This document shows, one piece after another, positions 5,179 through 61,662 of a stretch of DNA of 64,000 nt. The notes under the pieces are model-generated. The model saw nothing but the letters and a program-made list of their open reading frames with translations. It did no database searches and was not told where the DNA came from. The number at the start of each line of letters is the position of its first letter. Within the stretch, counting starts at the first letter, position 1. The translations under genes were made by a program, and so were the position numbers. This stretch comes from Chloropicon primus (Eukaryota > Chlorophyta > Chloropicophyceae > Chloropicales > Chloropicaceae): contig CP060755.1 in NCBI GenBank assembly GCA_023205875.1, forward strand, positions 496,001 to 560,000, in the 5' to 3' direction.

Positions 5179-5313
5179 GTCGAGTCCACTCGTTCAAGCG
5201 AGGTATCGTTGGAAAGCCCGGAAGACAACCCGTCGATCTGTTGGGTCCCCTCCTCGATCCACCGGCGCTCGCTCCCCCCAACCAATGCCCCTTGACTTGT
5301 TTCTCCTCCCCTC
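5179..5313. repeat. 135-bp direct repeat, copy A
   Basis: Matches 5361-5495 with about two differences; start-to-start distance 182 bp. Each copy carries one promoter element (see 5193 and 5375). It lies in the 462-bp divergent promoter between the PIP-box gene and NAA10. Confidence 0.9.
5193..5219 (-). promoter_or_regulatory. Recurrent promoter element, copy 1
   Basis: Read on the minus strand: GGGCTTTCCAACGATACC then TCGCTTGAA. It matches the element at 32728 closely and lies 62 bp upstream of the PIP-box gene ATG. Confidence 0.65.
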
Positions 5314-5360
5314 CTCTCGTTCTGTCGCGCAGTCAATCAATCTTCGACGAGCGGCGCGAT

Positions 5361-5495
5361 GTCGAGTCCACTCGTTCAAGCGAGGTATCGTTGGAAAGCC
5401 CAGAAGACGACCCGTCGATCTGTTGGGTCCCCTCCTCGATCCACCGGCGCTCGCTCCCCCCAACCAATGCCCCTTGACTTGTTTCTCCTCCCCTC
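5361..5495. repeat. 135-bp direct repeat, copy B
   Basis: Second copy of the 5179-5313 repeat, on the NAA10 side of the divergent promoter. Confidence 0.9.
5375..5401 (-). promoter_or_regulatory. Recurrent promoter element, copy 2
   Basis: Same sequence and orientation as copy 1, displaced 182 bp, about 193 bp upstream of the NAA10 ATG. Confidence 0.65.
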
Positions 5496-5593
5496 GTCTG
5501 TCAGAGGAGGAGCGTAGGTTATTTTGAGAGCGGCGCTGGCGCTGGCGCTGGAGAGAGAAGGAGAGAGGAGAGAGGAGAGAGGAAGGTATAGCT

Positions 5594-6193
5594 ATGGTGT
5601 GTATACGAACTGCGACGATAGACGACCTGCTTTACATGCAGCAGTGCAACCTGATGTCCCTGCCGGAGAACTATCAGTTCAAGTATTACTTGTATCACTT
5701 GCTTTCGTGGCCTCAGCTTCTGCAGGTGGCGGAGGACGAGAGCGGTAGGATCGTGGGGTACGTGTTGGCCAAGATGGAAGAGGATCCCGGGGAGTCTCAC
5801 GGGCACATCACGAGCCTTGCGGTGAACAGGACGAGCAGGAAGGTAGGACTCGCGACGAGGCTCATGATGTCCGCGCACGACAGTATGGACGAGGTCTTTC
5901 AATCGCCCTTTGTCAGCTTGCACGTCAGAGTCACCAACAAGGCGGCGATACATTTGTACAAAAACATCTTGAAATACGGTAAGTGGTTGGATCATCACCC
6001 TGATTGGGTTCTCGTTTGGTTCCTGACTCGCGTCTTTGCCTTTCGCTGCTCGGAAACGCTAGACGTTCACGACGTGGAGGAGAAGTATTACGCGGACGGG
6101 GAGAACGCCTTTGACATGAGGAAGCGCTTCAGGAAGCCGACGGGGAGCAGCGAGAAAGGTGGCGGGGGGGAAGGGAAAAAGCCTGCAGGGTAG
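5594..6193 (+). CDS. NAA10: N-alpha-acetyltransferase NatA catalytic subunit
   Basis: Exons 5594-5978 and 6063-6193, 171 aa spliced. A GNAT-fold enzyme that acetylates nascent protein N termini at the ribosome with NAA15. Family features: start [20 protein letters not shown], the GHITSLAV strand, the acetyl-CoA loop [26 protein letters not shown], and [13 protein letters not shown] at the end. The intron at 5979-6062 begins GTAAGTGG, has a CTGAC branch-like site and ends CTAG; it is 84 bp and free of stops, so retention would insert 28 residues in frame. Splicing restores the family sequence [17 protein letters not shown]. The C-terminal tail is Gly/Lys-rich. Confidence 0.93.
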
Positions 6194-10188: not shown

Positions 10189-13100
10189 ATGGGGCGAGGC
10201 CAAGGACACAAGATGATCCGGTATGCGCTCACTCTTGCTTTGCTCCTGGCCCTTGCCTTTGGAGGAAGACCTGCTGTGGCTTCGGAAGAAGTTGAGGTTT
10301 GCGCCGCGGAAGACCTCAAGAATGCTATCGAGTCGGGGACGTACAGGAGGATCATTGTGACTTGTGACCAGCTCATTGGACCGCAGCTCAACTTCAAACC
10401 AACGACGGACTTGACCATCGAGGGAAGGTGTTCGTCGCCAAGCGGTGTGGGTCCCTGCAAGATGACTGCGTTGAACCTGCAGCAACACTCCTCGTGTTCA
10501 GTGGTAGAGGATACGTGCCACTGGAAGCTGGTCGTGAAGAACATGATTTTCGATGGATCCTCCAATGGGTACGGCAACATGATATACTGGAAGTCCGATC
10601 ACTCCAATCAAATGGACGAGGGCGACTTCACGGGCTCGGTGTCGTTTGAGAGTTGCATTTTCAGGAACCTCTTGAACCCAGTCGTCGTCATGACGCGGTT
10701 CGATGTGACGTTCAGTTACTGCTCCTTCAGTGACAATGTCGGCAAAGCTTCGTCGACGCAGAGCATGGGGGGAACAAACTATTTTCCTGGCAGGGGTGGG
10801 GCCATCAGGGTCATCCGCGGCGAGGTTGTTGTCCTGGGTTGCACCTTCGAGAACAACAGCGTTGAGAACTCTGCAACGGGCGAGACGGGTCAGGGATCGA
10901 ACGTCTGGATCGGTGCTCTGAGTGTTCACTCAAGCTTCAGGCCCAAGGTGGAGTTTTCTGGGAGCAACTCGATCACTTCCACTTCCAACACTGTGTATGT
11001 CAAAGTGGATGACGACGGGAACATCTTGGGAAGTGCAGTCGATGTGGCAGCGCCTCCACCAAGTCCACCCCCACCACCGCCGGAAGAAGTTGAGGTTTGC
11101 GCCGCGGAAGACCTCAAGAATGCTATCGAGTCGGGGACGTACAGGAGGATCATTGTGACTTGTGACCAGCTCATTGGACCGCAGCTCAACTTCAAACCAA
11201 CGACGGACTTGACCATCGAGGGAAGGTGTTCGTCGCCAAGCGGTGTGGGTCCCTGCAAGATGACTGCGTTGAACCTGCAGCAACACTCCTCGTGTTCAGT
11301 GGTAGAGGATACGTGCCACTGGAAGCTGGTCGTGAAGAACATGATTTTCGATGGATCCTCCAATGGGTACGGCAACATGATATACTGGAAGTCCGATCAC
11401 TCCAATCAAATGGACGAGGGCGACTTCACGGGCTCGGTGTCGTTTGAGAGTTGCATTTTCAGGAACCTCTTGAACCCAGTCGTCGTCATGACGCGGTTCG
11501 ATGTGACGTTCAGTTACTGCTCCTTCAGTGACAATGTCGGCAAAGCTTCGTCGACGCAGAGCATGGGGGGAACAAACTATTTTCCTGGCAGGGGTGGGGC
11601 CATCAGGGTCATCCGCGGCGAGGTTGTTGTCCTGGGTTGCACCTTCGAGAACAACAGCGTTGAGAACTCTGCAACGGGCGAGACGGGTCAGGGATCGAAC
11701 GTCTGGATCGGTGCTCTGAGTGTTCACTCAAGCTTCAGGCCCAAGGTGGAGTTTTCTGGGAGCAACTCGATCACTTCCACTTCCAACACTGTGTATGTCA
11801 AAGTGGATGACGACGGGAACATCTTGGGAAGTGCAGTCGATGTGGCAGCACCTCCACCAAGTCCAACCCCACCACCGCCGGAAGAAGTTGAGGTTTGCGC
11901 CGCGGAAGACCTCAAGAATGCTATCGAGTCGGGGACGTACAGGAGGATCATTGTGACTTGTGACCAGCTCATTGGACCGCAGCTCAACTTCAAACCAACG
12001 ACGGACTTGACCATCGAGGGAAGGTGTTCGTCGCCAAGCGGTGTGGGTCCCTGCAAGATGACTGCGTTGAACCTGCAGCAACACTCCTCGTGTTCAGTGG
12101 TAGAGGATACGTGCCACTGGAAGCTGGTCGTGAAGAACATGATTTTCGATGGATCCTCCAATGGGTACGGCAACATGATATACTGGAAGTCCGATCACTC
12201 CAATCAAATGGACGAGGGCGACTTCACGGGCTCGGTGTCGTTTGAGAGTTGCATTTTCAGGAACCTCTTGAACCCAGTCGTCGTCATGACGCGGTTCGAT
12301 GTGACGTTCAGTTACTGCTCCTTCAGTGACAATGTCGGCAAAGCTTCGTCGACGCAGAGCATGGGGGGAACAAACTATTTTCCTGGCAGGGGTGGGGCCA
12401 TCAGGGTCATCCGCGGCGAGGTTGTTGTCCTGGGTTGCACCTTCGAGAACAACAGCGTTGAGAACTCTGCAACGGGCGAGACGGGTCAGGGATCGAACGT
12501 CTGGATCGGTGCTCTGAGTGTTCACTCAAGCTTCAGGCCCAAGGTGGAGTTTTCTGGGAGCAACTCGATCACTTCCACTTCCAACACTGTGTATGTCAAA
12601 GTGGATGACGACGGGAACATCTTGGGAAGTGCAGTCGATGTGGCAGCACCGCCGGGAACTCCACCTCCACCAGTGAATCCCAATCCACCTCCACCAGTGA
12701 ATCCTAACCCACCTCCACCAGTGAACCCCAATCCACCTCCACCAGTGAACCCCAATCCACCTCCACCAGTGAATCCTAACCCACCTCCACCAGTGAACCC
12801 CAATCCACCTCCACCAGTGAATCCTAACCCACCTCCACCAGTGAACCCCAATCCACCTCCACCAGTGAATCCTAACCCACCTCCACCAGTGAATCCTAAC
12901 CCACCTCCACCAGTGAATCCTAACCCACCTCCACCAGTGAACCCTAACCCACCTCCACCAGTGAACCCCAATCCACCTCCACCAGTGAACCCCAATCCAC
13001 CTCCACCAGTGAATCCTAACCCACCTCCACCAGTGAACCCCAATCCACCTCCACCAGTGAATCCTAACCCACCTCCACCAGTGAACCCCAATCCACCTCC

Positions 13101-13380
13101 ACCAGTGAATCCTAACCCACCTCCACCAGTGAACCCCAATCCACCTCCACCAGTGAATCCTAACCCACCTCCACCAGTGAACCCCAATCCACCTCCACCA
13201 GTGAACCCCAATCCACCTCCACCAGTGAATCCTAACCCACCTCCACCAGTGAACCCCAATCCACCTCCACCAGTGAATCCTAACCCACCTCCACCAGTGA
13301 ACCCCAATCCACCTCCACCAGTGAACCCCAATCCACCTCCACCAGTGAACCCCAAATCCACCTCCACCAGTGAATCCTAA
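10189..13380 (+). CDS. Secreted triple-repeat protein with proline spacer (first reading frame)
   Basis: 1063 aa. Signal peptide (ALTLALLLALAFGG) then three units of 266 residues, each beginning EEVEVCAAEDLKNAIESG. Units hold paired Cys and strand-turn patterns (LVVKNMIFDGSS, VSFESCIFRNLL, VTFSYCSFSDN, VVVLGCTFENNS) typical of right-handed beta-helix (pectin-lyase-like) proteins. Units are joined by PPPSPPPPPP linkers, then about 28 VNPNPPPP repeats. One repeat unit near 13351-13359 has an extra A, which shifts frame and meets TAA at 13378. The downstream frame (13370-14179) carries the rest. As read, this product would be secreted and lack the anchor. Likely role is cell wall or extracellular matrix; function not known. 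Confidence 0.75.
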   Translation: MGRGQGHKMIRYALTLALLLALAFGGRPAVASEEVEVCAAEDLKNAIESGTYRRIIVTCDQLIGPQLNFKPTTDLTIEGRCSSPSGVGPCKMTALNLQQHSSCSVVEDTCHWKLVVKNMIFDGSSNGYGNMIYWKSDHSNQMDEGDFTGSVSFESCIFRNLLNPVVVMTRFDVTFSYCSFSDNVGKASSTQSMGGTNYFPGRGGAIRVIRGEVVVLGCTFENNSVENSATGETGQGSNVWIGALSVHSSFRPKVEFSGSNSITSTSNTVYVKVDDDGNILGSAVDVAAPPPSPPPPPPEEVEVCAAEDLKNAIESGTYRRIIVTCDQLIGPQLNFKPTTDLTIEGRCSSPSGVGPCKMTALNLQQHSSCSVVEDTCHWKLVVKNMIFDGSSNGYGNMIYWKSDHSNQMDEGDFTGSVSFESCIFRNLLNPVVVMTRFDVTFSYCSFSDNVGKASSTQSMGGTNYFPGRGGAIRVIRGEVVVLGCTFENNSVENSATGETGQGSNVWIGALSVHSSFRPKVEFSGSNSITSTSNTVYVKVDDDGNILGSAVDVAAPPPSPTPPPPEEVEVCAAEDLKNAIESGTYRRIIVTCDQLIGPQLNFKPTTDLTIEGRCSSPSGVGPCKMTALNLQQHSSCSVVEDTCHWKLVVKNMIFDGSSNGYGNMIYWKSDHSNQMDEGDFTGSVSFESCIFRNLLNPVVVMTRFDVTFSYCSFSDNVGKASSTQSMGGTNYFPGRGGAIRVIRGEVVVLGCTFENNSVENSATGETGQGSNVWIGALSVHSSFRPKVEFSGSNSITSTSNTVYVKVDDDGNILGSAVDVAAPPGTPPPPVNPNPPPPVNPNPPPPVNPNPPPPVNPNPPPPVNPNPPPPVNPNPPPPVNPNPPPPVNPNPPPPVNPNPPPPVNPNPPPPVNPNPPPPVNPNPPPPVNPNPPPPVNPNPPPPVNPNPPPPVNPNPPPPVNPNPPPPVNPNPPPPVNPNPPPPVNPNPPPPVNPNPPPPVNPNPPPPVNPNPPPPVNPNPPPPVNPNPPPPVNPNPPPPVNPNPPPPVNPNPPPPVNPKSTSTSES
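10284..11081. repeat. 798-bp tandem unit 1
   Basis: First of three head-to-tail units; identical to unit 2 apart from a couple of bases in the proline linker. Confidence 0.95.
11082..11879. repeat. 798-bp tandem unit 2
   Basis: Second unit. Lack of silent differences over about 770 bp shows very recent duplication or ongoing homogenisation. Confidence 0.95.
11880..12655. repeat. 798-bp tandem unit 3
   Basis: Third unit; diverges only at its end, where the linker becomes the VNPNPPPP array. Confidence 0.95.
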
Positions 13381-13490
13381 CCCACCTCCACCAGTGAACC
13401 CCAATCCACCTCCACCAGTGAACCCCAATCCACCTCCACCAGTGAATCCTAACCCACCTCCACCAGTGAACCCCAATCCACCTCCACCAA
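12661..13490. repeat. 24-bp proline minisatellite, about 34 copies
   Basis: Unit CCACCTCCACCAGTGAATCC plus four bases, coding VNPNPPPP. Two synonymous unit types (AATCCTAAC and AACCCCAAT) alternate, hinting at a 48-bp higher-order unit. One unit near 13351 is 25 bp. Confidence 0.95.
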
Positions 13491-14179
13491 TGAGCCCGTC
13501 CCCCCCACCACCACCACCTGAAAAGAAGGACGAGCCTACTTTCAAGGTAGGTTTCAAGCTCGTCTTTGAGAATGTCGATTACGACAAGCTGCAGGCAGAT
13601 GGGAAGCTGCAGTCACTTGCTGAAGACGTGAGGCGATCCTGGGCCCTTACAGCTGGCGTGCCAATTGAGGCAGTCGTGGTAACACTGAAGAAAGGAAGTC
13701 TGATCACAGAAGTGGAGATCAATTTTGAGGGGCAAGACAAGAAGGGCGATGCCGAGAAAGCCCAAGAAGGCGTGAAAAATTATGAGCTCGTCGTGGATGT
13801 CATTCAAACCAGTCCTGCGCTGAGCTCGGCCTTGGGCATACAAGACACGAGCACCTTGACCGCGGCCACGACGAAAACTTTCACCAGGATTGAAGGGAAA
13901 GTTCAGCTCACTGAAGAGTCTGGCTCGAGCGACGGTTCGTGGCTATCTTCCGGGAAGCGGGTTGTAATTCTGGTCTTTGGAGGACTCGTTATCGTCACCC
14001 TAGGATTCTGCGGTCTGAGTAGGAGGTACTCGAAGAAGAAGCCGCAAGATTACCTCGCAAAAGCGAAGCAGGCGGACAGAATGAGACAGGAACAGGAACT
14101 GCTTCCCACTCACATCAGCACGAACAAAATCAATTCGAACAAGTTCGTCACGATGAACCCCCTGTCCGCCGGATTGTAA
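13370..14179 (+). CDS. Membrane-anchor portion of the triple-repeat protein (second reading frame)
   Basis: Continues VNPNPPPP in frame 2 right after the shifted unit, then SPSPPPPPPEKK, a folded domain of about 110 residues (FKVGFKLVFENVDYDKLQ ... GVPIEAVVVTLKKGSLITEV) resembling SEA-like domains of algal surface proteins, a transmembrane helix (VVILVFGGLVIVTLGFCGL) and a basic tail of about 60 residues. It has no signal peptide, so it is best read as the C-terminal part of the upstream gene. The break is a sequencing or assembly indel in the repeat, an allele, or much less likely a programmed frameshift. Intact, the gene would make a type I surface protein of about 1320 residues. Confidence 0.7.
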   Translation: MNPNPPPPVNPNPPPPVNPNPPPPVNPNPPPPVNPNPPPPMSPSPPPPPPEKKDEPTFKVGFKLVFENVDYDKLQADGKLQSLAEDVRRSWALTAGVPIEAVVVTLKKGSLITEVEINFEGQDKKGDAEKAQEGVKNYELVVDVIQTSPALSSALGIQDTSTLTAATTKTFTRIEGKVQLTEESGSSDGSWLSSGKRVVILVFGGLVIVTLGFCGLSRRYSKKKPQDYLAKAKQADRMRQEQELLPTHISTNKINSNKFVTMNPLSAGL

Positions 14180-15852: not shown

Positions 15853-17733
15853 TCAGCACGTTGGGCTTCTTTCGTACTTTGGTGGGAAGCTAGGGCAGGC
15901 CTCCGCCATGTGGGAGCTCATGTCAACCGTGTTATGGTCGTTCAAGTGCAAAGTGTACTTGCCCATGATTTGACACACTTTCGTGTCCCCACCTTGGTGC
16001 TGCGAGCCCTCGCCACTGTCGCACTCTTCAGGAAAGTCAAAATTGGCATCAAATATTCCAAGCTTGTGAACATCGTAAGGGGTGAACTCGCCGCAATTCA
16101 CTTTGTTCCCTATTTCCTGGAACAGCCCCGCCTCCTTCCATATTCTGCACACGAAGACGCTGCAGACCATCGCGGGACCCGTTTGGGTCATGTTTGGGAA
16201 CATCTGGTACTCCCACCCATCTTGCTCGGGGATGGCTGGAAGTCCAGAAAGGAACTGCGTTGAATCCATCCCCTCTGGCTTCTTCTCCAGGTACGTTCGG
16301 AACAAGTCGAGAGTGTGCAAGCCAGTGGTCCCGACCCTTTTGTTGAAGGCCTGGAGCCAAATTTTCTGCGCCACCGAGGTGGACACTCTGTCGAAAAAGA
16401 TCGCCAGCACCTCGAGGAGGATCCAGGAAAAGCACCTGTCGTACTTGGGAGGGATGCATGGGTAGTTTGCCTCAAAGGTGTCAAGCCAGGAGAAAAGCAT
16501 GTTCTCGTACCCGTAGTCCAGGCCCTCGACGGATTCGAAAAACTCCCAGGCTTGGACCTCGTTGAACTTCCTTCTGTATTCCGGAGCGAGAGGCGCCCAG
16601 ACGACGTGATGCTCTGCCTTGGAGGCCTTCTGCAGCCACTCCTCAAACGGAGTGCACTGTATGCCGTTCGTGTCCCAGTAAGCATCCTTCGCCGTGCTCT
16701 CGCAGATGTGAAGGCCTCCTGGACCCTCGACCTCCGGTTTCCTCAAGGCAATTGCGGTGTGCCCCGTGGTCGACCCCGTGGCCCAAGCCAGCATTGGGTC
16801 CAATCCGTCGAGCCTCAAGATGCCCATGAAGTCCCCGCTGTGGATCAAGCTGGAGTTCAAGCTGATGGGTCCCGTCCCTTGGCCACCATTCCTGGGCTCC
16901 ATGTACGGTTTGATCTGCTGGTACTGCCTCAGGAACTCGAGGTTGTCCCTCTCGCTGTAGGGGTTCACGTCCTGCGTGCCGAACGGGACGAAGAGGGAAA
17001 GCGTGTGGTAGACATCTTCGATGATGCTCGCCCAGCTTCCCTTCCTGAACAAGAAAACGTGGAGTCCCCTGTTGTAGAGGTACCACATCTCTTGCTCGGT
17101 CAGCTCCTTTGTGGTCCAGATGACCTTGTGGGTCCCTCCTTGACCAAAGTTGAGCATCTTGAAGCCACTGCCGGAGAACACCACCATGCTTTCCACGCAA
17201 GGCTTGTACCACTCCCCCTTCGCCTCCGCCAAATAGAAGATCATGCGGAGCTCCGTTCCCACCCCCTCCCTGATGTCCATCTCGAACCCAACCTCCTTGT
17301 AGCAGTGGCCCTCGACCACATGGCCCTGCACGCTCTCGGGCATGAGCGTCCCGACGTAGTCAGGGATGAAGCCGAACCACTCGGGGTCGGCCCCGCCTAC
17401 CTTCTCGGACTCCCTCACCCTTCTTCCGGCATACTCTCTCAACTCCTCCCGGAGCTTGCCCTGGAGTCTCTCCGTCGAGAGCTCGTCGAAGGAGAACTGA
17501 GGTCCAAGGAATCCTCTGGGCCACGCCCAAGACGCGTTGCTCCCCGGTTCCGCTCCCTCAGGAGTCTCGAAGAACGTGTCCACGAGTGACTCCCTCTCCC
17601 TCTCGTGCCTCAACCTCTGCGCCGCGAAGGAACGAGACTCTCTCCTCCCTCCCCTCGCGCAGTAGCAACCGTCCAAGAACACGAGGCAACACAAGGCGGA
17701 CACCACCAGTAACGCTCGCGTCATGCCTCTCAT
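15853..17733 (-). CDS. Secreted papain-fold (NlpC/P60-YiiX-like) candidate, conserved protist family
   Basis: Intronless, 626 aa from the ATG at 17733 (a second ATG follows at 17724). A signal peptide, RALLVVSALCCLVFLDGCYC, gives an endomembrane or extracellular product. Residues 295-400 contain SGDFMGILRLDGLDPMLAWATG, GHTAIAL (H325) and HICESTAKDAYW, then LDYGYENMLFSWLDT: an order like permuted papain-fold peptidases or acyltransferases, where the conserved GH is catalytic and Cys lies elsewhere. Several Cys in the C-terminal half suggest disulfides. I recall related proteins in other protists, but substrate is unknown. Confidence 0.6.
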   Translation of the reverse strand: MRGMTRALLVVSALCCLVFLDGCYCARGGRRESRSFAAQRLRHERERESLVDTFFETPEGAEPGSNASWAWPRGFLGPQFSFDELSTERLQGKLREELREYAGRRVRESEKVGGADPEWFGFIPDYVGTLMPESVQGHVVEGHCYKEVGFEMDIREGVGTELRMIFYLAEAKGEWYKPCVESMVVFSGSGFKMLNFGQGGTHKVIWTTKELTEQEMWYLYNRGLHVFLFRKGSWASIIEDVYHTLSLFVPFGTQDVNPYSERDNLEFLRQYQQIKPYMEPRNGGQGTGPISLNSSLIHSGDFMGILRLDGLDPMLAWATGSTTGHTAIALRKPEVEGPGGLHICESTAKDAYWDTNGIQCTPFEEWLQKASKAEHHVVWAPLAPEYRRKFNEVQAWEFFESVEGLDYGYENMLFSWLDTFEANYPCIPPKYDRCFSWILLEVLAIFFDRVSTSVAQKIWLQAFNKRVGTTGLHTLDLFRTYLEKKPEGMDSTQFLSGLPAIPEQDGWEYQMFPNMTQTGPAMVCSVFVCRIWKEAGLFQEIGNKVNCGEFTPYDVHKLGIFDANFDFPEECDSGEGSQHQGGDTKVCQIMGKYTLHLNDHNTVDMSSHMAEACPSFPPKYERSPTC

Positions 17734-17940
17734 GCTCGCCACCTCGTCGGAACAAAGCAGGAAAACGAAGACAAAAACGCGAGTCCTTAACTACCTTCGA
17801 CCCTCCACTCAACCCTCGCCCTTGGACTCGTCCCCTCCCTCCTCTCCCTCTCTCTCTTCCACCTCTCTCCTGGTTTCCCCTCTCTCGACTGGCCACGAAA
17901 ATGGCCACGAAATCCTCACCAAACCGTCTATCCTTTCACG

Positions 17941-17975
17941 CGACACCTCGTTCGAAAGAGCAAGAGACGAAGCTT
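17941..17975 (-). promoter_or_regulatory. Recurrent promoter element, copy 3
   Basis: Minus strand reads AAGCTTCGTCTCTTGCTC then TTTCGAACGAGG. Located about 210 bp upstream of the papain-fold gene ATG in the 573-bp divergent region 17734-18306, which has no gene. Confidence 0.7.
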
Positions 17976-18212
17976 CTTATTTCCCCCTCCTTTTTCGACA
18001 CTCTTCCCCACCCTGGTTGCCGTGGCCTCCTCTCCGTCACCTCTCCGTCGCCTCGAGCGTCGCCTTCTGCCTCGAGAGAATTGCCCTATGGATGAGGGGA
18101 CTGCTGAGTCACTCACTCGAGGAGGGCGAAGGTGACGAGGGGAAGGACGAACTTGGCGACGTCTTACGCACGAAGCGTGGGATGAAAGGGGAAGAGAATG
18201 AAATGAACGGAA

Positions 18213-18240
18213 GGTACGTCTCGAGGGCTTTCGATTGGTG
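18213..18240 (+). promoter_or_regulatory. Recurrent promoter element, copy 4 (short form)
   Basis: GGTACGTCTCGAGGGC then TTTCGATTGG, 67 bp upstream of the F-box-like gene ATG; nearly the same as the copy before VPS53. Confidence 0.7.
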
Positions 18241-18306
18241 TGCGCTGTCCTAGCCTAGCCTTTTGATGGAGGAATTTGACGGAAGGGAAGGCGATGAGGT
18301 GATGTG

Positions 18307-20921: not shown

Positions 20922-21070
20922 GGGCGCGAGAAAATACAAGTGCGCAAACCGAGCGGAGTCCGCGTTAGGGCTTGACGAGGGAGCGAGCGAGGGAGAGGTT
21001 GCGGTGGTGTTGGACGGCGACGGGCGACGGGAGGGAGGACTTCAAGGGGAAGGGGAGGGTGCAGGGTGAA

Positions 21071-21098
21071 AGTACGTTTCGAGGGCTTTCGATTGGTA
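21071..21098 (+). promoter_or_regulatory. Recurrent promoter element, copy 5 (short form)
   Basis: AGTACGTTTCGAGGGC then TTTCGATTGG, followed by GGAATTGGGTGGG, 72 bp upstream of the VPS53 ATG. The same trailing GGxATTGGGTGGG is seen after the copy at 27168. Confidence 0.7.
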
Positions 21099-21170
21099 CC
21101 GGAATTGGGTGGGTTTGGGCCGAGGGACTTGTTTTTTTTTCTCGTCAGAGGGACTGGAGTCGCGACGAGG

Positions 21171-26937: not shown

Positions 26938-27161
26938 GGCGCGCAACCGAGGGAGGAGAGCGAGATACGGACGACGGGATCACAAAGTACGCTTCAAGGG
27001 CTTTCCAGTGGTCCCTTGGTTGACGATTTTGAACTCTTGGAAAGCGGTCTGCTTGCCATCTCATCAGATACAACGGAGAGGCAACGAACCGAGCAAGGGA
27101 CACGAAGGGGAGAGGAGACTGGCGCGCAACCGAGGGAAGGGAGCGAGATACGGACGACGGG
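26938..27161. repeat. Direct repeat of GGCGCGCAACCGAGGG block, 181-bp period
   Basis: A 42-bp block (26938-26980 and 27119-27161) ending GAGATACGGACGACGGG occurs twice, start-to-start 181 bp, each followed by a recurrent promoter element. It lies in the 574-bp divergent promoter of TrpRS and the RING-like gene. Confidence 0.85.
26986..27012 (+). promoter_or_regulatory. Recurrent promoter element, copy 6 (short form)
   Basis: AGTACGCTTCAAGGGC then TTTCCAGTGGT, 128 bp upstream of the TrpRS ATG. Confidence 0.65.
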
Positions 27162-27167
27162 GTCTGA

Positions 27168-27200
27168 GCGTACGTCTCGAGGGCTTTCGGTGGGTTACGG
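27168..27200 (+). promoter_or_regulatory. Recurrent promoter element, copy 7 (short form)
   Basis: GCGTACGTCTCGAGGGC then TTTCGGTGGGTTACGG, 183 bp after copy 6 and about 235 bp upstream of the RING-like gene ATG. Confidence 0.7.
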
Positions 27201-27432
27201 TATTGGGTGGGTTCGACCCTTGAAAGGGCGAGGAGTGCGGAAGAGAGGGGGAGGGATTGCCTAGGGAGGGAGGCTGAGGCTGAGGGAGACCAAGAGGAGG
27301 GAGACTGAGGGGGAGGACGACTCAATAGACCATCGTGCCGCCGTTCCTGTCTCGCCAGGTGGTTTTCGCATTGGTCGAGGTGCTGGACGCGCTGTGAAGA
27401 AGGAGACAAGGTTGTTCGAGGCAGAGGAGCAA

Positions 27433-29768: not shown

Positions 29769-29798
29769 CGCGTTTCGCGTCCTCAAATCCTCACCACT

Positions 29799-29855
29799 GC
29801 TTCGTTTCCTTCGATCGAGGACAATTTCGAAAGAGGAACAGACGATATTTCCGCC
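29799..29855 (-). promoter_or_regulatory. Recurrent promoter element, copy 8 (long form)
   Basis: Plus strand: GCTTCGTTTCCTTCGATCG, then AATTTCGAAAGAGGAACAGAC and TTCCGCC. It starts about 31 bp upstream of the PWWP ATG. Confidence 0.7.
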
Positions 29856-29982
29856 TTCCCGGTCCTCTCCCTTCCCCGACCCTTTCCCCTCCCGATACCG
29901 CAGCGCTCGTCCTCCACGGCACGCACACGCACAAGCCCTCAAAATGACGCGTCTACTTTCTCTCTGCCAATGCCTCACAACC

Positions 29983-30040
29983 GCTTCGTTTCCTTCGAGC
30001 GACGGCTCTTTCGAAAGAGCAAGAGACAACGCTTCCGCTT
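29983..30040 (-). promoter_or_regulatory. Recurrent promoter element, copy 9 (long form)
   Basis: Plus strand: GCTTCGTTTCCTTCGAGCG, then the perfect 16-bp palindrome GCTCTTTCGAAAGAGC (30005-30020), AAGAGAC and CTTCCGC. Exactly 184 bp after copy 8 in the same orientation; about 110 bp upstream of the XRCC3 ATG. No gene in 29769-30151. Confidence 0.75.
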
Positions 30041-30151
30041 GTTCGGTCCTCCACTTCCTCGCTCCCCCTCCCGCCCGCTCAGACGCTTCGTTTCGCGAAC
30101 TCTCTCTCTCTCTCCCTCGCGCGCGATCGCCAAGCTGTCAGTGGAGCGGCG

Positions 30152-32565: not shown

Positions 32566-32727
32566 CGCCAATCCTTATCCAAAAACGAAATCCTAGAGAA
32601 ACGTGAGCCATCCACATCGCATCGCTCCGGAGGGACGGAGAGGGAACCGAGGGAAGCGAGAGGTAAGCGAGAGTGGGCGTGTGGGTAGAGGTTGGGGGGG
32701 TTGGGATTGAAGAATTCGTCGTGTTTG

Positions 32728-32763
32728 GGGCTTTCCAACGACCTCTCGCTCGAAGGGAACGAC
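32728..32763 (+). promoter_or_regulatory. Recurrent promoter element, copy 10
   Basis: GGGGCTTTCCAACGACC then TCTCGCTCGAAGGGAACGAC. Located between the divergent dehydrogenase (ATG 32565) and hydroxypyruvate reductase (ATG 32873); the 307-bp gap has no gene. Confidence 0.7.
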
Positions 32764-32872
32764 GAGGTATTGAGGATTTGAGGACTGATCTCTGATGTTG
32801 GTGTGTCTCTCTCTTTGTGATGATGATAGTGAGTGCGTGAGGAGGGCATTCGGGACGAGATCGAGGGCGAGA

Positions 32873-39566: not shown

Positions 39567-39799
39567 CCCGTCACACCCCTCCCTGATCCTCACCTACCCT
39601 TCCCGCTGCCCTCGTTCCCTCACTCCACGAGACACAATCAATCAATCACACCATAACGCTCGTCACTTTCTCTAGGCACCAAAGGTCCCTTCATTCTCTG
39701 CCCGTCCATTAGGAGAGAGAGAGGTTGGAGTCGGTAAGGGAGGGTTTTTTGCGGCCAAGGAGGCTGGAAGGGTGCGAGAGAGGTTTCTCCAAACGAATC

Positions 39800-39821
39800 T
39801 ACGTCTCAAGAGTTTTCGAGA
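39800..39821 (+). promoter_or_regulatory. Recurrent promoter element, copy 12
   Basis: TACGTCTCAAGAGTTTTCGAG A, 70 bp upstream of the UNC45-like ATG, in the 324-bp divergent gap 39567-39890. Confidence 0.6.
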
Positions 39822-39890
39822 GATACCCTCCATTGATAGGTTTGGACGCGAGGCGAGGTTGGGTCTCTTCGGAGGAAGGGGTTGGCGTCG

Positions 39891-43270: not shown

Positions 43271-43502
43271 CTTCTCTCTCTCTCTCTCTCTGGTCTCTCT
43301 CCGTCAACAACAACTCGCCGTCGTCGTCGTCGCCGTCTCGCCTCTCTCTCTGAAGCGGCGAGCGTTTTTTTTGGGGAAGCGGCGAGCGTTTCGTTTTCAG
43401 AAAATAACGGAGTTTGAGGGGAGGGTGCGGCCGGCGAGGGGGAGAGGGAAGGGAGAGGGAGAGGGAGAGGGAGAGGGAGAGTGGGAGGGGGAGAGACCGA
43501 AG

Positions 43503-43550
43503 CGTCGTCTCTTGAGCTTTCGAAAGAGTCGTCAATCGAAAGAAACGGAA
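43503..43550 (+). promoter_or_regulatory. Recurrent promoter element, copy 13 (long form)
   Basis: CGTCGTCTCTTGAGC, CTTTCGAAAGAGTCGTC, then AATCGAAAGAAACGGAAAG. About 80 bp upstream of the first secreted paralogue ATG; gap 43271-43630 otherwise has G/A repeats. Confidence 0.75.
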
Positions 43551-43630
43551 AGAGGGTGGAACGAGGAGGGGAGAAGGGGAGTGAGGATGTCGACGATGAC
43601 GACGGCGTTTGGATTGGGGGGGGGACTGGG

Positions 43631-44362: not shown

Positions 44363-44365
<3 letters not shown>

Positions 44366-44400: not shown

Positions 44401-44706
44401 TATCCTTGTAAACGAACGCAACATCAGTCACCTTCAATTCACTTCACTCCTCCTTCCCACCCATCATCGAGAGACGAGACCTCTGGGATTTTTTCCCTAA
44501 CGGCTCAAGCCTCGATTCTCTCGCGAAGAGCAGCGCTCATGAGGGGAGAGCGAGAACGAGAGCGAGGACGAGGGCGACGACGGGAGCGACGACAATCACA
44601 ACAATGGCGTTCGCTCCGCAATGCAGAGGTCAGGATAGGGTAGAGTAAGACAGGCGGAAGTATGGCACCGCCGCGGCGGGGGGGGGGGTCGGTGCTGGCG
44701 AGGCTC
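44401..44706. repeat. 306-bp direct repeat, copy A
   Basis: Identical by eye to 45502-45807 (offset 1101 bp). It spans the 3' UTR of the upstream paralogue, the promoter, and the first 15 codons of paralogue 2. Confidence 0.95.
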
Positions 44707-45336: not shown

Positions 45337-45501
45337 TGCGGAGTCGGAGTCGCTGAGGGGGGGGGAGGGGCACCACAAGACTCAAAGATTCGACGACGCG
45401 CGAGATGCTTCTGCTTCTGCTCTGTTGGCTGGGGAGAAGGAAGGCCAAAAGAATTTTGTGCGAGAGCGAGCGAGGGGCGGGAGGGAGAGAGAGACTATTT
45501 G

Positions 45502-45807
45502 TATCCTTGTAAACGAACGCAACATCAGTCACCTTCAATTCACTTCACTCCTCCTTCCCACCCATCATCGAGAGACGAGACCTCTGGGATTTTTTCCCTA
45601 ACGGCTCAAGCCTCGATTCTCTCGCGAAGAGCAGCGCTCATGAGGGGAGAGCGAGAACGAGAGCGAGGACGAGGGCGACGACGGGAGCGACGACAATCAC
45701 AACAATGGCGTTCGCTCCGCAATGCAGAGGTCAGGATAGGGTAGAGTAAGACAGGCGGAAGTATGGCACCGCCGCGGCGGGGGGGGGGGTCGGTGCTGGC
45801 GAGGCTC
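45502..45807. repeat. 306-bp direct repeat, copy B
   Basis: Second copy of 44401-44706, giving paralogue 3 the same promoter and start as paralogue 2. Confidence 0.95.
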
Positions 45808-46473
45808 CTCGCCTTGCTGGGGAGCCTGGTGGTGGTGGTCGCGCTGTTCTCCGCTGCTGCGTCTGCGAGCGCGGCGGGCGGGACGATGAGTCACAGGAAG
45901 CTCTTGCAGGAGACGTCCGAGCTGCCCATCCTGTCGCCCCTCGTGCCCATCAACTGGTTCATCTTCGGAGGGCAGCCAACGAACAAGTTCAATATAAGCA
46001 ATCCCATCGTGCGTTACCTCATCGTTTTCACCTCCAGCTTCATGAGGCTGAACGCGTTCGAGTTCACCCTCTTCGGTGACTTCCCGGTCCTCACGATGGG
46101 GGTGCCTCAATTCACGCTGTTCGGGGGGAGGGGGTTCGGCAACGGGAGAGCTGGAAGTGAGATCGGACTGCGGACCGGGGCGCCCGTGAGCCAACTGGCG
46201 TCTTGGATCGCCTTCCAGGCCTTCGCCGTTCCAGCGCGAGCGGTGGGCCTGCGCATGTCCCTGTTCTCGCGCTTCGGGTTCGAAGAGCTCGAAGAGCTCG
46301 GCATTCCGTCTAACTTGCCTGACCTGTGGAGCATCCCTTACAACAGTAACGCCGCATCAGTAGCCTTGATCGACGATAGTTTCGTCAACTACGTGAGGAG
46401 CGGGAGGTTGGCCGAGCTCTTGCTCTCATCGAGCTATCCAGGGTTCTACGGCACATCATTCTCCTCCATATGA
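45763..46473 (+). CDS. Secreted paralogue 3 of the tandem family
   Basis: 236 aa. Identical start (MAPPRRGGGSVLARL), then a longer signal region (LALLGSLVVVVALFSAAASA) and MSHRKLLQETSELPILSPLV followed by PINWFIFGGQPTNKF. Conserved LNAFEFTLFGDFPV, PQFTLFGGRGFG, LIDDSFVNY and YPGFYGTSFSSI; ELEELGIPSNLPDLWSIPYN corresponds to the LEDLGLGVPSN block of the others. The most divergent of the three. Confidence 0.7.
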   Translation: MAPPRRGGGSVLARLLALLGSLVVVVALFSAAASASAAGGTMSHRKLLQETSELPILSPLVPINWFIFGGQPTNKFNISNPIVRYLIVFTSSFMRLNAFEFTLFGDFPVLTMGVPQFTLFGGRGFGNGRAGSEIGLRTGAPVSQLASWIAFQAFAVPARAVGLRMSLFSRFGFEELEELGIPSNLPDLWSIPYNSNAASVALIDDSFVNYVRSGRLAELLLSSSYPGFYGTSFSSI

Positions 46474-55274: not shown

Positions 55275-55286
55275 CTCCTCACCAGA

Positions 55287-55343
55287 GCGTCGTTTCTTTC
55301 AAGCGACGGCTCGTTCGAAAGAGCAAGAGACGAAGATTCCGCC
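55287..55343 (-). promoter_or_regulatory. Recurrent promoter element, copy 14 (long form)
   Basis: Plus strand: GCGTCGTTTCTTTCAAGCGA, GCTCGTTCGAAAGAGC (55309-55324, one mismatch from a perfect palindrome), AAGAGACG and ATTCCGCC. It begins only 13 bp from the AlaRS ATG, so it is part of, or abuts, the transcription start. Confidence 0.75.
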
Positions 55344-55542
55344 TGTACCCTCAACTCTCCCTCCCTCCCTCCCGCCCGCCCGCTCCTTCCCTTCAAAGCC
55401 GCAAGGTCCTCACCCAACCTCGTTCTGAGGCTCCTGTTGCTCCACACGTTATCCAAACAGAGGCGGACGCGAAAGACGGTGGAGTCGATCGAGAGAGGGG
55501 AGGAGGGGTCGGGAAAGGGGAGGGGGAAGGTACCAGGGCGAA

Positions 55543-55568
55543 GCTGCGTCTCAAGGGCTTTCCATCGG
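55543..55568 (+). promoter_or_regulatory. Recurrent promoter element, copy 15 (short form)
   Basis: GCTGCGTCTCAAGGGC then TTTCCATCGG, in the 517-bp AlaRS/MOCS2A divergent region; opposite orientation to copy 14. Confidence 0.65.
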
Positions 55569-55741
55569 CGTGTCACTCGCCCGGTTTGGTCACGAGACTT
55601 GTTGTCCACCCCTCTTGGACCCCACTTGTTGTGAAAGGAGTCCAGTCCTCTCTTCTCGAGAGCAAAGGAGAGAGGGGTTCACGGGGCGCAGGAGGGGGCT
55701 GGGCGGCGGGAGACCGGGTGTGGGAGCTCCCTTTGGCTGTG

Positions 55742-57204: not shown

Positions 57205-57970
57205 CCTCCTTCGTCCTTCGTCCTCGTCCTCGTCAAAACAAAAAACAAAACAAACCCTTCTGGCTTCGATCGTTCGACACGAACGTAATCCTTTCCTTCT
57301 GGATGGATCGTACGTACGGATGGATATGGATCTCAACCGTCGACCGCCGCAATCACAAAAGGTTCGGGTCGAGAAAACAAACCTCTCGTCCGTTACGAAC
57401 CAAGAGAGGCAGGCGTTACGAACCCAAGAGAGGGGGAAGGGGGCAAACGTTTGCCGTCGTGGGCCCAAAGACCGCCGTTGCGTTGCGTTGCGTTGCCGTC
57501 GTCTCCTTCGTTCTTCGACGAAGCTTTTTTTTTTTTTTCGGCGCGCCAAAAATAATAGGGTGTACCAAGGCGAAGGAGTAGTGTAAAAGAATCGTCATCG
57601 TTTCCTTAATTGGAGCCAAGAGACAGGCGAGGACGAGGAGGAGGAGGTCTCGTCGTCTTGGCACTGAATAAGGGAATGGCGTCTTGGCGTCACGTACTCG
57701 TACTTGTTCAAGTAAGGAGTCTCTCGATGGAGTGTACGCGTTCTCCTTGCCTTGGTTTTGCCTTAATCGAAGGCGAGGAAAAGACTTTGCACCTTTTGGA
57801 CGTCCCAGGTGTTAGTCTCGTTTCCTAAAGTAAAGGGTTTCATTGACCGGAATTTGAACCCAAGGGTCTTGGGAAGGACAAAGGGTGTGGTGCCTGTGGG
57901 CGAGGAAGCGTAGGCTTTAGGCTGGAAGTACGGCGCAGGGAAGGGCGTGAGCAAGGCGGAGAAGGGTTCA
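57205..57970. other. Divergent intergenic region upstream of SR and DNAI3 genes
   Basis: No gene seen. Short direct repeats GTTACGAACCAAGAGAGG / GTTACGAACCCAAGAGAGG at about 57394 and 57415, a T-run at 57527-57538, and low-complexity G/A stretches. A T-arm-like GGGTTCAAATTCC on the minus strand at about 57846-57858 does not fold as a tRNA. Confidence 0.45.
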
Positions 57971-58026
57971 GGCGGAATCCTCGTCTCTTCAGCTTTCCAA
58001 AGAGCCCTCTCTTGAAGGAAACGGGA
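57971..58026 (+). promoter_or_regulatory. Recurrent promoter element, copy 16 (long form)
   Basis: GGCGGAATCCTCGTCTCTTC, AGCTTTCCAAAGAGCC, CTCTCTTGAAGGAAACGGG, about 90 bp upstream of the DNAI3 ATG. It shows every block of the long form in plus orientation. Confidence 0.75.
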
Positions 58027-58114
58027 AAGTGTGGGCATTGGGTCGACCTCAGGAGGGTGGGCAGTGGTTGCTGGAGCAGGGGAAGGGAAGGGCTAGGAGG
58101 GAGAGTTGAGGGAG

Positions 58115-60832
58115 ATGACCGAGGAGGAGGCTGGAGGGCAGGAGGAGGTGGCGGCCAAGGAGGCGGAGGATGGACCGGCGGAGGCCAAGGCGGAGGAGAC
58201 GCAGGCGGCGGAGGCTGCAGAGGGCGGGGACAAGGGGAGCGACGAGGAGGAGGAGGAGGAGGAGCTCGGGGACCCAAACGACATCGTCATACCCCTGTCC
58301 TACGTCGAGAAGGAGGACGGGACGAACGCCCCTCTCAAGGGCGTGCTCTCGATCTTCGTCACCGAGACGACCAAGAAGATCGTGAACATCGAGTCCTTGG
58401 GACCGGAGAACCCCATGATGACGGTGGAGAAGGCCGTGATTGTGGAGGACATTAGGTTCCGTGGCGTGATATCGGACTTCGGTCCGATAAAGAAGGAGAT
58501 CGAGTCCTCCCCCCTGGAGCTCTTGATCCTGAGGCACAACGAGGACGACATCTACGGCGACGGGAACAACCTGGAGGTGTGCGTGAGCGAGGGGGCCGCC
58601 ACGGTCTGGAACGAGGTCCTTGAGCTTACCCAGAAGAAGGCCGAGCTTATCAAGAAGATAGCCGAGAGGGAGGCGAGGGACAAGGCCATGGGAAAGAGCA
58701 AGCGGAAGAAGAAGAAGAAGAGGGTGCACAAGCCCTGGGTGAGCTTGGGCTCGGACCAAGAGATTCTCGAAGAGAAAGTGGTCGACACGAGGGACAGAAT
58801 TCAAATGGTTTTCCACAGGCAGCACGGGGAGCTCAACCAGGCCCTCGACTTGACCGACAAGGACGCCTCGGAGCTGTGGAACTCCTCTCAGATGGAATGC
58901 AGACCCTTCAAAGATCCTAACTTCGAGCTCGTGAGGCTCGAGAAGGAGATTGGCGTCCAAGCCATTCCGGAGACGACGGACTGCGGGTCTCAGGCCACGA
59001 AGAACAGGCAAGTAAACGCAGTGATGCAGTACGAGGCCTTCATGTCGGAGAACGTACGGAGCAACAGGAGAGAAAAGTTTCAGAAGACGGACAAGGACGA
59101 GGAGATCGCCGCCTTTCTTGACAGGGTGAGGCCCCTGTACGAGAAGGCCCTGCAGCAGAACGAGCTTTACGATATTTTCGAGGACAAGTTCAGTCTACTC
59201 GCCGAGGAGGATCACGGCCCAGGAAACAAGAACGAGAACAACATCACGGAGTTCCAGAGTTTCACCTACTGGAAGTACTCGAACAACAAGGTCGCCTCTT
59301 GCATTGACTGGGTTCCTGGGGAGGACAACGTGGTCGCTGTTGCGATTACCGAGCCGCTGTCGTTCAACGAGAGGCTGAAGATCTCCGGAAAGCCAAGGAC
59401 GAGTTACATTCTTATCTGGAGCTTCACGGACCCGATCCACCCGCAGTACGTCCTGGCGTCGCCTTTCGACATCTATGCTTTCCAGTTCAACCCCTACAAC
59501 AAGGGCATTGTTGCCGCTGGCTGCTACAACGGTCAAGTCATCCTGTGGAACATCGAAGACGCAAAGAAGCAGCTCGAGGCCCAAAGGAGCGCGGATGACG
59601 ACGAACAGGGGAGCGAGGAGACCCTCATCCCGTCGATCGCTCCCTCGATGGTCTCTTCGATCGACAAGTCCCACTCCATGTGCATCACGGACTTGATCTG
59701 GCTTCCAGCTGGCGTCGAGGTCACCAAGGACGGCAAGGTTGCCATCGGCAGCGATGACAACGCCAGCAGCTTCTTTGCCACGACCTCTGTGGACGGCAGG
59801 GTCTTATTCTGGGACACGAAGGTGGCCAAGAAGAAGGAGAGCGAAGCGGGGGAGAATGGAGGCGAAGCTGGTGGGAAAGGCAGCTCAGGAAATGCCCAAG
59901 GTAGCAGCGGAAGCAGCAGGAGAAGGGGGAAGGATAGCGATAAGGGCACGGAGTGGAAGGCGACTTGGAGCGTGGGTCTCGTGAGGGAGCAGGGAGGAGA
60001 CCTTGCGGCGACCAAGCTTTCGTTCAACCTCAAGGACTCCCTGGAGACGGCTTTCTTCGCAGGTTCCATGGATGGGGAGATTGCCTACGCGGAGTACCAC
60101 AAGCCAGAGGACGTCCAGCACCCCGAGTACACGAAAATGACGATAGACGCTCACTTTGGTGCCATCTCGACGCTCCAGCGGAGCCCCTTCTTCGAGGACA
60201 TTGTGCTTTCCGTCGGAGAGTGGTCCTTCAAGATCTGGAAGGAGGGCTTGAGCTCACCGATTTTCGCGTCGGCCTCGGCCACGACGTACTTGACCATGGG
60301 CTGCTGGTCTCCCACCCGGCCCGGAGTGATCATCACCGCCAGGGAGGACGGAATGATCGAGGTGTGGGATCTCTTGGACCGCTCTCACGAGGCCAGCATG
60401 GTCTCCACGGTGAGTTCCTCCTCCATCACCTCGCTCAAGTTTTACGAGAGCAGCTCCAGCAGCTACCAGCTCCTCGCTGCGGGGGACAGCATGGGTAAGC
60501 TGCACATTCTGGAGCTGCCCAGAAACCTCAGGCGGCCGATCTTGAACGAGAAGGAAATCATGCAGTCCTTCTGCGAGAGGGAGTTGGAAAGGGTTCAGTA
60601 CGTTGGCTCGACTTTGAAAACCTTCAAGAACATCGCCGATGACTCGAACAAGTTGTTGGATTTGGGCGACAAGGGCGTGGACCAAGACCTTCAGGACGAG
60701 CAGCAGCAAAGCATGCTCGAGCTCATCGAAAAGAGTGAGCAGGAGTACCTGAAGCTCGAGAAAGAGTACAGAGAAAAGTTCAACCTCGACGCGCCCAACG
60801 GTGCCGCCAACGGCGAAGTTCCTGTGAGCTGA
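58115..60832 (+). CDS. DNAI3: Axonemal inner-arm dynein I1/f intermediate chain (DNAI3/WDR63, IC140)
   Basis: Intronless, 905 aa (human WDR63 is about 890). An acidic, Ala-rich N terminus precedes a conserved region: IVIPLSYVEKEDGTNAPLKG, WNSSQMECRPFKDPNFEL, IGVQAIPETTDCGSQAT and RPLYEKALQQNELYDIFEDK. WD40 repeats run from about residue 380 to 800 (VASCIDWVPGEDNVVAVAI, YAFQFNPYNKGIVAAGCYNG, FFATTSVDGRVLFWDT, SVGEWSFKIWKEGL, PGVIITAREDGMIEVWDLLD). The C-terminal tail is helical. It is a subunit of the two-headed inner-arm dynein of motile flagella, so its retention points to a flagellate stage. Confidence 0.9.
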   Translation: MTEEEAGGQEEVAAKEAEDGPAEAKAEETQAAEAAEGGDKGSDEEEEEEELGDPNDIVIPLSYVEKEDGTNAPLKGVLSIFVTETTKKIVNIESLGPENPMMTVEKAVIVEDIRFRGVISDFGPIKKEIESSPLELLILRHNEDDIYGDGNNLEVCVSEGAATVWNEVLELTQKKAELIKKIAEREARDKAMGKSKRKKKKKRVHKPWVSLGSDQEILEEKVVDTRDRIQMVFHRQHGELNQALDLTDKDASELWNSSQMECRPFKDPNFELVRLEKEIGVQAIPETTDCGSQATKNRQVNAVMQYEAFMSENVRSNRREKFQKTDKDEEIAAFLDRVRPLYEKALQQNELYDIFEDKFSLLAEEDHGPGNKNENNITEFQSFTYWKYSNNKVASCIDWVPGEDNVVAVAITEPLSFNERLKISGKPRTSYILIWSFTDPIHPQYVLASPFDIYAFQFNPYNKGIVAAGCYNGQVILWNIEDAKKQLEAQRSADDDEQGSEETLIPSIAPSMVSSIDKSHSMCITDLIWLPAGVEVTKDGKVAIGSDDNASSFFATTSVDGRVLFWDTKVAKKKESEAGENGGEAGGKGSSGNAQGSSGSSRRRGKDSDKGTEWKATWSVGLVREQGGDLAATKLSFNLKDSLETAFFAGSMDGEIAYAEYHKPEDVQHPEYTKMTIDAHFGAISTLQRSPFFEDIVLSVGEWSFKIWKEGLSSPIFASASATTYLTMGCWSPTRPGVIITAREDGMIEVWDLLDRSHEASMVSTVSSSSITSLKFYESSSSSYQLLAAGDSMGKLHILELPRNLRRPILNEKEIMQSFCERELERVQYVGSTLKTFKNIADDSNKLLDLGDKGVDQDLQDEQQQSMLELIEKSEQEYLKLEKEYREKFNLDAPNGAANGEVPVS

Positions 60833-60922
60833 AGAAAAGCGCAGGGCTCAACAAACGGGTTTCGAAACACAACATACATTACTAGCTCGCCACCTGTGAA
60901 AGGGCGATATTTCACTTATATT

Positions 60923-61459
60923 TTACTGTCCCAAGAAGTTGATCAACCTTTGCCTCGTTATGTTACTGCTGCTGTTCGACGCTCTGGTCCGGTTCGAGCT
61001 CGTGCTCGTGCTCCTCGTGGTCGTTGGCAGCGCCGTCGGGATGTCCCTCAGCTCCTTCTTCATGCACAGGGACTCGCCGACAAGCGTCATGCAAGCCACG
61101 GAGACCCCTATGGTGATCCACCACTCTATGGACGCCGGGAAGCCTCCGTAGGACCAGCAGAAGAGCAGGTGGAACACGTAGCAAGTCACCGTGAAGTCCA
61201 AGCACTTCTTCGTTCGTTCCACTACGAGGTACAGAACGACCGAGCCCGCCAACGCGCTCGCGAGGTACGACACAATCGGGGAGACCCCAATAAGCTTCCG
61301 GTAGTCAAACAGGAGCTCCACTGTCAGCGGACTCCTCGCCCTCGAGGCCAGGAACATGTACAGCGCCGTGCACAAGTTCAAGTAAAACAGGCACTGCACG
61401 CACACCATCTGCGCCACGATGAGCACAGGGTCCCATATCGACTTTCCGTAAAACGCCAT
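60923..61459 (-). CDS. SYS1: SYS1, Golgi membrane protein
   Basis: Intronless, 178 aa. Four-helix membrane protein that recruits the ARL3/ARFRP1 GTPase to the trans-Golgi. Start MAFYGKSIWDPVLIVAQMVC matches SYS1 (WDPLLILSQI); later KKCLDFTVTCYVFHLLFCWS and FPASIEWWITIGVSVACMTL then GESLCMKKELRDIP are the family's most conserved segments. The C-terminal 35 residues are Ser/Thr/Asn-rich and cytosolic. It functions in the same trans-Golgi system as GARP (VPS53 in this window). Confidence 0.93.
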   Translation of the reverse strand: MAFYGKSIWDPVLIVAQMVCVQCLFYLNLCTALYMFLASRARSPLTVELLFDYRKLIGVSPIVSYLASALAGSVVLYLVVERTKKCLDFTVTCYVFHLLFCWSYGGFPASIEWWITIGVSVACMTLVGESLCMKKELRDIPTALPTTTRSTSTSSNRTRASNSSSNITRQRLINFLGQ

Positions 61460-61607
61460 CCTCCCCTACGTACGCCTTCGACGACAACACAGCACAGCAC
61501 AGCACAACACAACACTCCTCCTCCTCCCTTCACCGCCTTCCCTTCATCCTCCTAAGCTCTCTCTCTCTCTCTCTCTTTGTCTGTCTCTTTGTCTGTCTGT
61601 GTCGTCG

Positions 61608-61662
61608 CCGCTTCACGAGAGCGGTCGGTCCTTCGAAAGACAAAGAGGCGGCGCTTCCGCCT
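61608..61662 (-). promoter_or_regulatory. Recurrent promoter element, copy 17
   Basis: Plus strand: CCGCTTCACGAGAGCGGTC, CCTTCGAAAGACAAAGAGGC and GCGCTTCCGCC. It lies about 150 bp upstream of the SYS1 ATG in the 659-bp divergent gap, flanked by (TC)n runs at 61558-61576 and 61735-61753; the rest of the gap shows nothing else. Confidence 0.6.

Follow-up and report, generated by a model that had tools for sequence, protein, structure and literature searches.

A gene-facing sequence module of about 66 bp with the marks of a directional promoter element in the green alga Chloropicon primus

The DNA analysed here is a 64,000-bp stretch of contig C2 of Chloropicon primus RCC138 (C2:496001-560000, hereafter the window). 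The genome comprises 17,584,162 bases in 20 contigs, with C1 and C20 measuring 1,855,637 and 417,210 bases, and two contigs start with telomere arrays of the TTTTAGG/TTTAGG type (complement reading), as described for this strain (PMC12301720). Gene calls, obtained with a 3-periodic coding model applied to open frames without introns, place in the window genes for VPS53, AlaRS, a D-isomer 2-hydroxyacid dehydrogenase and a DMC1/RAD51-type protein (at 37880). VPS53 matches a C. primus protein record at 100% identity; the record starts at 21180, not at the ATG at 21171. Several other open frames were noted. At 130-2592 (+), an ion-transport domain is fused to a guanylate cyclase domain, guanylyl cyclases forming a family of 30 in the Chloropicon genome (PMC6731263); at 46651-48564 (-), a single frame matches the odd domain mix of myosin TH1, F-box and Yippee/Mis18; and at 43631-46473, three related tandem frames, each of about 0.65-0.7 kb, include an exact 300-bp repeat. 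A minisatellite with a 24-bp unit, present in about 35 copies (12660-13497), overlaps the 3' portion of a long frame, which also contains three identical repeats at 798-bp spacing (10283-12178).

The intergenic regions of the window carry a recurring element, for which the initial annotation had listed 17 sites. A first model of 70 columns, built up from the sequence blocks of that annotation, gave 53 sites. Iteration with a relaxed model led into CT-rich repeats; that version was discarded and replaced by the final model, which is ungapped, has 66 columns and is scored against a third-order background with a threshold of at least 12 bits. Sixteen of the 17 listed sites were recovered, at 22.9-60.2 bits, whereas the site at 37254 reached at best -11.7 bits on either strand, which leaves the DMC1/RAD51-type gene without an element. 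The list was also incomplete, since one strong copy had been overlooked, and the window total is again 17 sites of at least 12 bits (Table 1).

Table 1. Copies of the element in the window and the genes that they face (positions are those of the window).
Feature	Coordinates	Strand	Score (bits)	Gene faced and remarks
Element copy, tandem pair (182 bp)	5176..5241	-	44.1	Gene 4082-5131 (-)
Element copy, tandem pair with 5176	5358..5423	-	44.7	
Element copy, divergent pair with 18203	17918..17983	-	49.1	Gene 15853-17733 (-)
Element copy	18203..18268	+	29.0	Gene 18307-20046 (F-box match under the Pfam cut-off)
Element copy	21061..21126	+	39.0	VPS53, ATG 21171
Element copy, tandem pair (183 bp)	26976..27041	+	27.3	
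Element copy, tandem pair with 26976	27159..27224	+	22.9	Gene 27433-28905 (+)
Element copy, tandem pair (184 bp)	29793..29858	-	36.5	PWWP gene 29403-29768 (-)
Element copy with perfect palindrome 30005-30020	29977..30042	-	55.6	
Element copy	32706..32771	+	40.6	D-isomer 2-hydroxyacid dehydrogenase, ORF 32795-34114
Element copy	39788..39853	+	29.4	Core 891 bp from next called same-strand gene, 40706 (Arm repeat)
Element copy	43492..43557	+	51.5	Gene 43631 (+)
Element copy, divergent pair with 55533	55281..55346	-	60.2	AlaRS, start codon 55274
Element copy	55533..55598	+	39.9	No gene called nearby; next same-strand gene 2555 bp from core
Element copy	57968..58033	+	44.1	Gene 58115-60832 (weak WD40-type matches only)
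Element copy, divergent pair with 61862	61599..61664	-	25.1	Gene 60923-61459 (-)
Element copy, new to the list	61862..61927	+	47.3	Gene 62119-63768 (+)

Application of the model to a 284-kb sample (the window, the stretches L009-L028, and L037 and L038, the latter two selected for holding the core and contributing 7 of the sites) revealed 54 sites of at least 12 bits. They form a distinct class: the interval from 12 to 20 bits is empty, and four order-4 Markov shuffles of this sample contained no site above the threshold. Their consensus is AnnRnnnGAAnSnTCGTCTCnnGnKCTTTCGAWnGAnnnSTCRCTYGAnnGRnWYGRnKnnnKRnn, with an information content of about 38 bits. A below-threshold site of 8.8 bits lies 519 bp from a neighbouring element, in divergent orientation. 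Two further stretches likewise selected for the core, L039 and L040, added four sites (44.7-51.3 bits), and with five more from the short loci L001, L002, L007 and L035 the set grows from 54 to 63 unique sites. Clustering separates this larger set into two subclasses of 31 and 32 sites with linked positions, one carrying TCTTTCGAAAGAG and the other CTTTCgATtGAt. Genome-wide, the pattern GTCTCNNGNNCTTTC has 647 matches, its reversed control only 17. It is matched by 13 of the 47 sites from stretches not selected by the core; scaling roughly from this fraction gives about 2,300 elements per genome. Three element patterns had no match in a viral contig collection, and no VPS53 relative was found there.

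The initial annotation had stressed the palindromic nature of the element. The perfect palindrome that it reported at 30005-30020 is present, yet it marks a subtype only: the left CTTTC is near-constant, the right half is variable, and paired palindromic positions show no covariation. The palindrome therefore does not merit the weight first given to it, and the same observations speak against a palindromic dimer site or an RNA hairpin.

Analysis of the position of the element relative to genes revealed a strict organization. As first reported for the window, no copy lies in a coding region: none of the 54 cores falls within called coding sequence, which takes up 66% of random points. Six copies run off the end of their stretch, and for the other 48 the next gene lies on the strand of the element in 44 cases and on the opposite strand in four, whose genes may have gone uncalled. 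The same-strand fraction at random non-coding points is 68% (binomial p ~1e-4, tandem copies not being independent), and without the core-selected L037 and L038 the orientation toward a same-strand gene is kept in 37 of 41 cases. Intergenic gaps were classified in a sample consisting of the window, C1:1.1-1.2 Mb, L024, L027 and L028, with C1:400,001-450,000 counted apart. In this sample the element was present in 17 of the 26 gaps between divergent genes, in 7 of the 25 between tandem genes and in none of the 28 convergent ones (divergent versus convergent, Fisher 7e-8). The statement that nearly all copies sit between divergent genes thus applies to 17 of the 24 element-bearing gaps, the other seven being tandem. 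Likewise, the proposed distance of about 250 bp from an ATG agrees with the median between core and called ATG (217 bp in the 44 same-strand cases), not with the range, which extends from 37 to 5028 bp. A copy within 600 bp upstream is found for 23 of 84 well-supported genes, a set that includes four stretches selected for holding the core, or for 23 of 68 when C1:400-450k is left out. Enrichment at 5' ends, absence from coding and 3'-3' regions, and an orientation following the direction of transcription of the predicted genes are those of a core-promoter element.

The genes served are functionally unrelated, as had been proposed; they encode VPS53, AlaRS, the 2-hydroxyacid dehydrogenase, Pescadillo, Dna2, PNKP, a sialyltransferase, GPI2 and an SDR. 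Two of the original gene assignments shift, however. The pair listed at 29799/29983 does not face the RAD51-like frames at 30251-31020 (+), which give weak tblastn matches; both copies point toward a gene on the minus strand, the open frame of which closes with the beginning of a PWWP domain. The second shift concerns the DMC1/RAD51-type gene at 37880, which has no copy. The gene at 58115-60832, the candidate for the DNAI3 label, has no more than weak WD40-type matches.

Such a dispersed repeat could also be a mobile or duplicating element, MITE-like or minisatellite-like, that was later tolerated in promoters, an alternative already named in the initial annotation. Like introner elements or MITEs, the element is a short unit of nucleosome-like length, present in many copies in a small green-algal genome. 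The near-identical tandem copies at 5176/5358, the linked positions of the subclasses, and 80 bases common to the heads of two sets of tandem units separated by 48 kb (C8:491501 and C8:539189, where gene duplication is possible), point in the same direction. However, similarity between element-bearing loci is confined to about 49-108 bp, with no long shared body, and unrelated copies are strongly diverged, with a mean identity of 0.50. Unlike introners or MITEs, the copies stay outside called coding sequence and convergent gaps and are bound to the orientation of genes. We consider a mobile origin very unlikely.

The copies are also spaced in a regular manner. All ten same-strand pairs lying 150-225 bp apart have a spacing of 176-186 bp. 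Genome-wide, same-strand CTTTCNNNNGA pairs with a start-to-start distance of 161-191 bp number 426, against 27 for the control, and the flanking classes of 130-160 bp and 192-222 bp hold 55 against 6 and 79 against 17, counts in which palindromic copies are scored on both strands and some matches are not elements. Within the 161-191 bp class the median is 180 bp (first 100 of the 426 matches). In 10 of 12 divergent pairs the 5' ends lie 180-219 bp apart, in the remaining two 258 and 272 bp; genome-wide, divergent pairs number 106, against 2 for the control. No convergent pair was seen among neighbouring sites up to 600 bp apart in the 284-kb sample (66-column model); the genome-wide convergent count (71 against 1) is confounded by the palindromic subtype, which is recognised on either strand. 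Members of divergent pairs have a mean identity of 0.50, the same as between unrelated loci, and their spacing is therefore kept without sequence copying. As for the ten tandem pairs, five are more similar than 95% of the pairings of unrelated copies, the other five stay within that limit, and two mix the subclasses; duplication therefore accounts for some of the pairs and not for the kept spacing.

These distances could reflect a nucleosome-phasing code, compatible with a promoter function, in which every copy would specify the position of a single linker or nucleosome edge. Copies in tandem would then mark successive nucleosomes, with a repeat of about 180 bp, and back-to-back copies would flank a nucleosome-sized or nucleosome-free centre. 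The narrow spacing of the ten tandem pairs, half of them within the similarity range of 95% of unrelated pairings, its recurrence genome-wide, and a change in strand composition 100-110 bp upstream of the element all agree with such a code. Unit duplication nevertheless explains part of the tandem pairs, and the 9-bp periodicity of information content along the element is weak (autocorrelation 0.16 at lag 9). We regard phasing as possible, though less likely than not. Internucleosomal DNA methylation reported in the small algae Micromonas and Ostreococcus (PMC12695648) offers a parallel in its nucleosome-scale periodicity at genes, with the difference that a base modification is involved there and a 66-bp sequence module here; the name Chloropicon does not occur in the main text of that paper.

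The composition of the surroundings was determined over the 63 sites. Between about -95 and the element the sense strand is rich in purines, with G at about 0.5; a weaker purine excess follows from the element end to about +180, whereas about 100-110 bp upstream of the element the strand turns pyrimidine-rich. This flip fits a mirror axis between divergent genes. De novo word searches, conducted upstream of the elements and upstream of element-free genes, gave no second strong motif, and the core words are not enriched before element-free genes. The palindromic word CGATCG is enriched in the 200 bp upstream of elements (16 of at most 53 stretches, 3.4 expected).

The start of transcription may be approached through the distribution of ATG. 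Over 60 usable sites, sense ATG occurs 27 times in the interval -100..0, against 43.0 expected; leaving out a single (GATGATG)n site changes the figures to 15 against 32.6, leaving out chromosome 20 to 5 against 24.2, and retaining only sites with a called gene nearby to 7 against 25.6, the depletion over all 60 sites being weaker partly because of that single repeat. Antisense CAT is not depleted in the same interval, nor is ATG in +66..+166. In element-free, well-supported genes outside C1:400-450k, ATG is depleted only over about the last 100 bp before the start. Since ATG ranks only 4th-5th among the 63-64 trinucleotides by depletion in -100..0 and is undepleted in +66..+166, its scarcity upstream is suggestive only. 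Beyond the last copy, counting from column 55, the first ATG lies 63-131 bp from the copy start in 37 of 53 cases. The median distance of 110 bp differs modestly from the 135.5 bp at 546 random intergenic points, and in 31 of 53 cases this ATG is followed by an open frame of 100 codons or more, against 31% at the random points.

Two genes bring the start codon very close to the element. In AlaRS it lies six bases beyond the 3' end of the element, and in PNKP, identified by Pfam in L028, the predicted start codon coincides with the last columns of the element, a prediction made without homologue support. The MADKxK near the N-terminus of AlaRS is kept in a relative with 70% identity (P0242), in which six extra codons precede MADK that, by eye, are unlike the 3' end of the element; the element may be absent there. 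If both start codons are right, the element is at least partly transcribed in these genes, and it probably lies at or downstream of their transcription start. Two placements can be proposed for the start in general. First, it could fall within the element, for example near the near-invariant CTTTC, which would give leaders of about 40-105 bases in the 37 cases above. Secondly, it could lie upstream, no more than about 100 bp before the element.

The sense orientation, the start codons directly after the element in AlaRS and PNKP, and the depletion over 100 bp upstream of sense ATG and not of antisense CAT, as if in a transcribed leader, would also fit a 5'-leader RNA element acting on mRNA translation or stability. 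RNAalifold, however, gave no consensus structure for 61 diverged copies folded together, an insensitive comparison in which 100 shuffled alignments also gave none, and the palindromic columns lack compensatory changes. At gathering scores, Rfam had no match in the window. Moreover, a function in RNA gives no reason for the tandem and divergent spacings, and the ATG signal itself is blunted by its rank and by the undepleted 100 bp after the element. An RNA element is thus improbable in our estimation.

The element is unevenly distributed over the genome. Chromosome 1 has three GTCTCNNGNNCTTTC matches up to 1.0 Mb and 27 over its other 0.86 Mb (p ~8e-7, among the matches listed), and on C2 none lies beyond 926,528 (among the matches listed). 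Looser pair patterns do have a few places in both sparse regions, and these are perhaps due to chance, because one of them lies in a C1 stretch without any model site. That stretch, C1:400,001-450,000, holds the element in none of its 19 gaps (5 divergent, 9 tandem, 5 convergent), and its leaders are also without purine skew. From these 50 kb we take a domain of C1 with a different promoter grammar as a lead and not a result. On C20, the elements of L025 and L026 are often preceded by ATGs and have few called genes around them, unlike those of the other stretches.

Comparison with known systems reveals partial resemblances. The polypyrimidine (TCT) initiator of ribosomal-protein genes, YC+1TTTYN, recalls the near-invariant CTTTC core of the element, and the start codon lies at a short leader distance in the two genes described above. 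The core of the element is nevertheless set in a rigid 66-bp module that serves unrelated genes, and the preceding base is T or G and not always a pyrimidine. Sites for general regulatory factors such as Reb1, Abf1 and CTCF are dispersed in the promoters of unrelated genes and have a plausible role in nucleosome phasing. The element is similar in all these respects and differs in being strictly gene-oriented, with fixed spacings. A long C2H2 array was not seen in the genome, where PF00096 has at least five matches, three of them in one frame.

Taken together, the element is real and stronger than the initial annotation had supposed; its strict direction, its length of about 66 bp, its tandem and divergent spacings and its purine-skewed surroundings had all been overlooked. 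The interpretation then offered is partly supported. A general core-promoter or architectural-factor site agrees with the position, the orientation, the absence from coding sequence and convergent gaps, and the unrelated genes. Our preferred reading, to which we assign a probability of about 0.6, is that the element acts as a directional promoter module where C. primus transcription units begin. Weighing against it are the majority of well-supported genes, which have no copy in their upstream 600 bp, the four copies facing a gene on the other strand, the intron-free gene calls and the only modest shift in the distance to the first ATG. A putative sequence-specific protein or complex would read the module on DNA and determine in which direction transcription runs and where the transcript begins, with the start inside the module or within about 100 bp upstream. 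The module would constitute one arm of bidirectional promoters, and its 180-bp spacing would arise from nucleosome phasing.

To our knowledge, little is known of the promoter syntax of early-branching green algae. The terms "promoter" and "palindrom" are absent from the main texts of the Chloropicon genome papers PMC6731263 and PMC12301720. Judged by title and the start of the abstract, among the matches listed, no such module appears in the literature on Chloropicon promoters or regulatory elements, and none of the papers listed for TTTCGAAAG deals with an algal promoter. We treat the module as undescribed in the literature covered.

In its most far-reaching form, which we consider rather unlikely, the promoter reading would extend to a nucleosome-quantised language, in which a 66-bp directional word, one per nucleosome and mirrored across a centre of about 200 bp, would encode start site and direction for perhaps one quarter to one third of the genes, whole chromosome domains using another grammar almost without the word. 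Already a long, sharply delimited, directional module with a spacing of nucleosome length would offer a testable handle on how DNA writes direction and chromatin phasing, and a ready promoter part for a lineage of marine phytoplankton.
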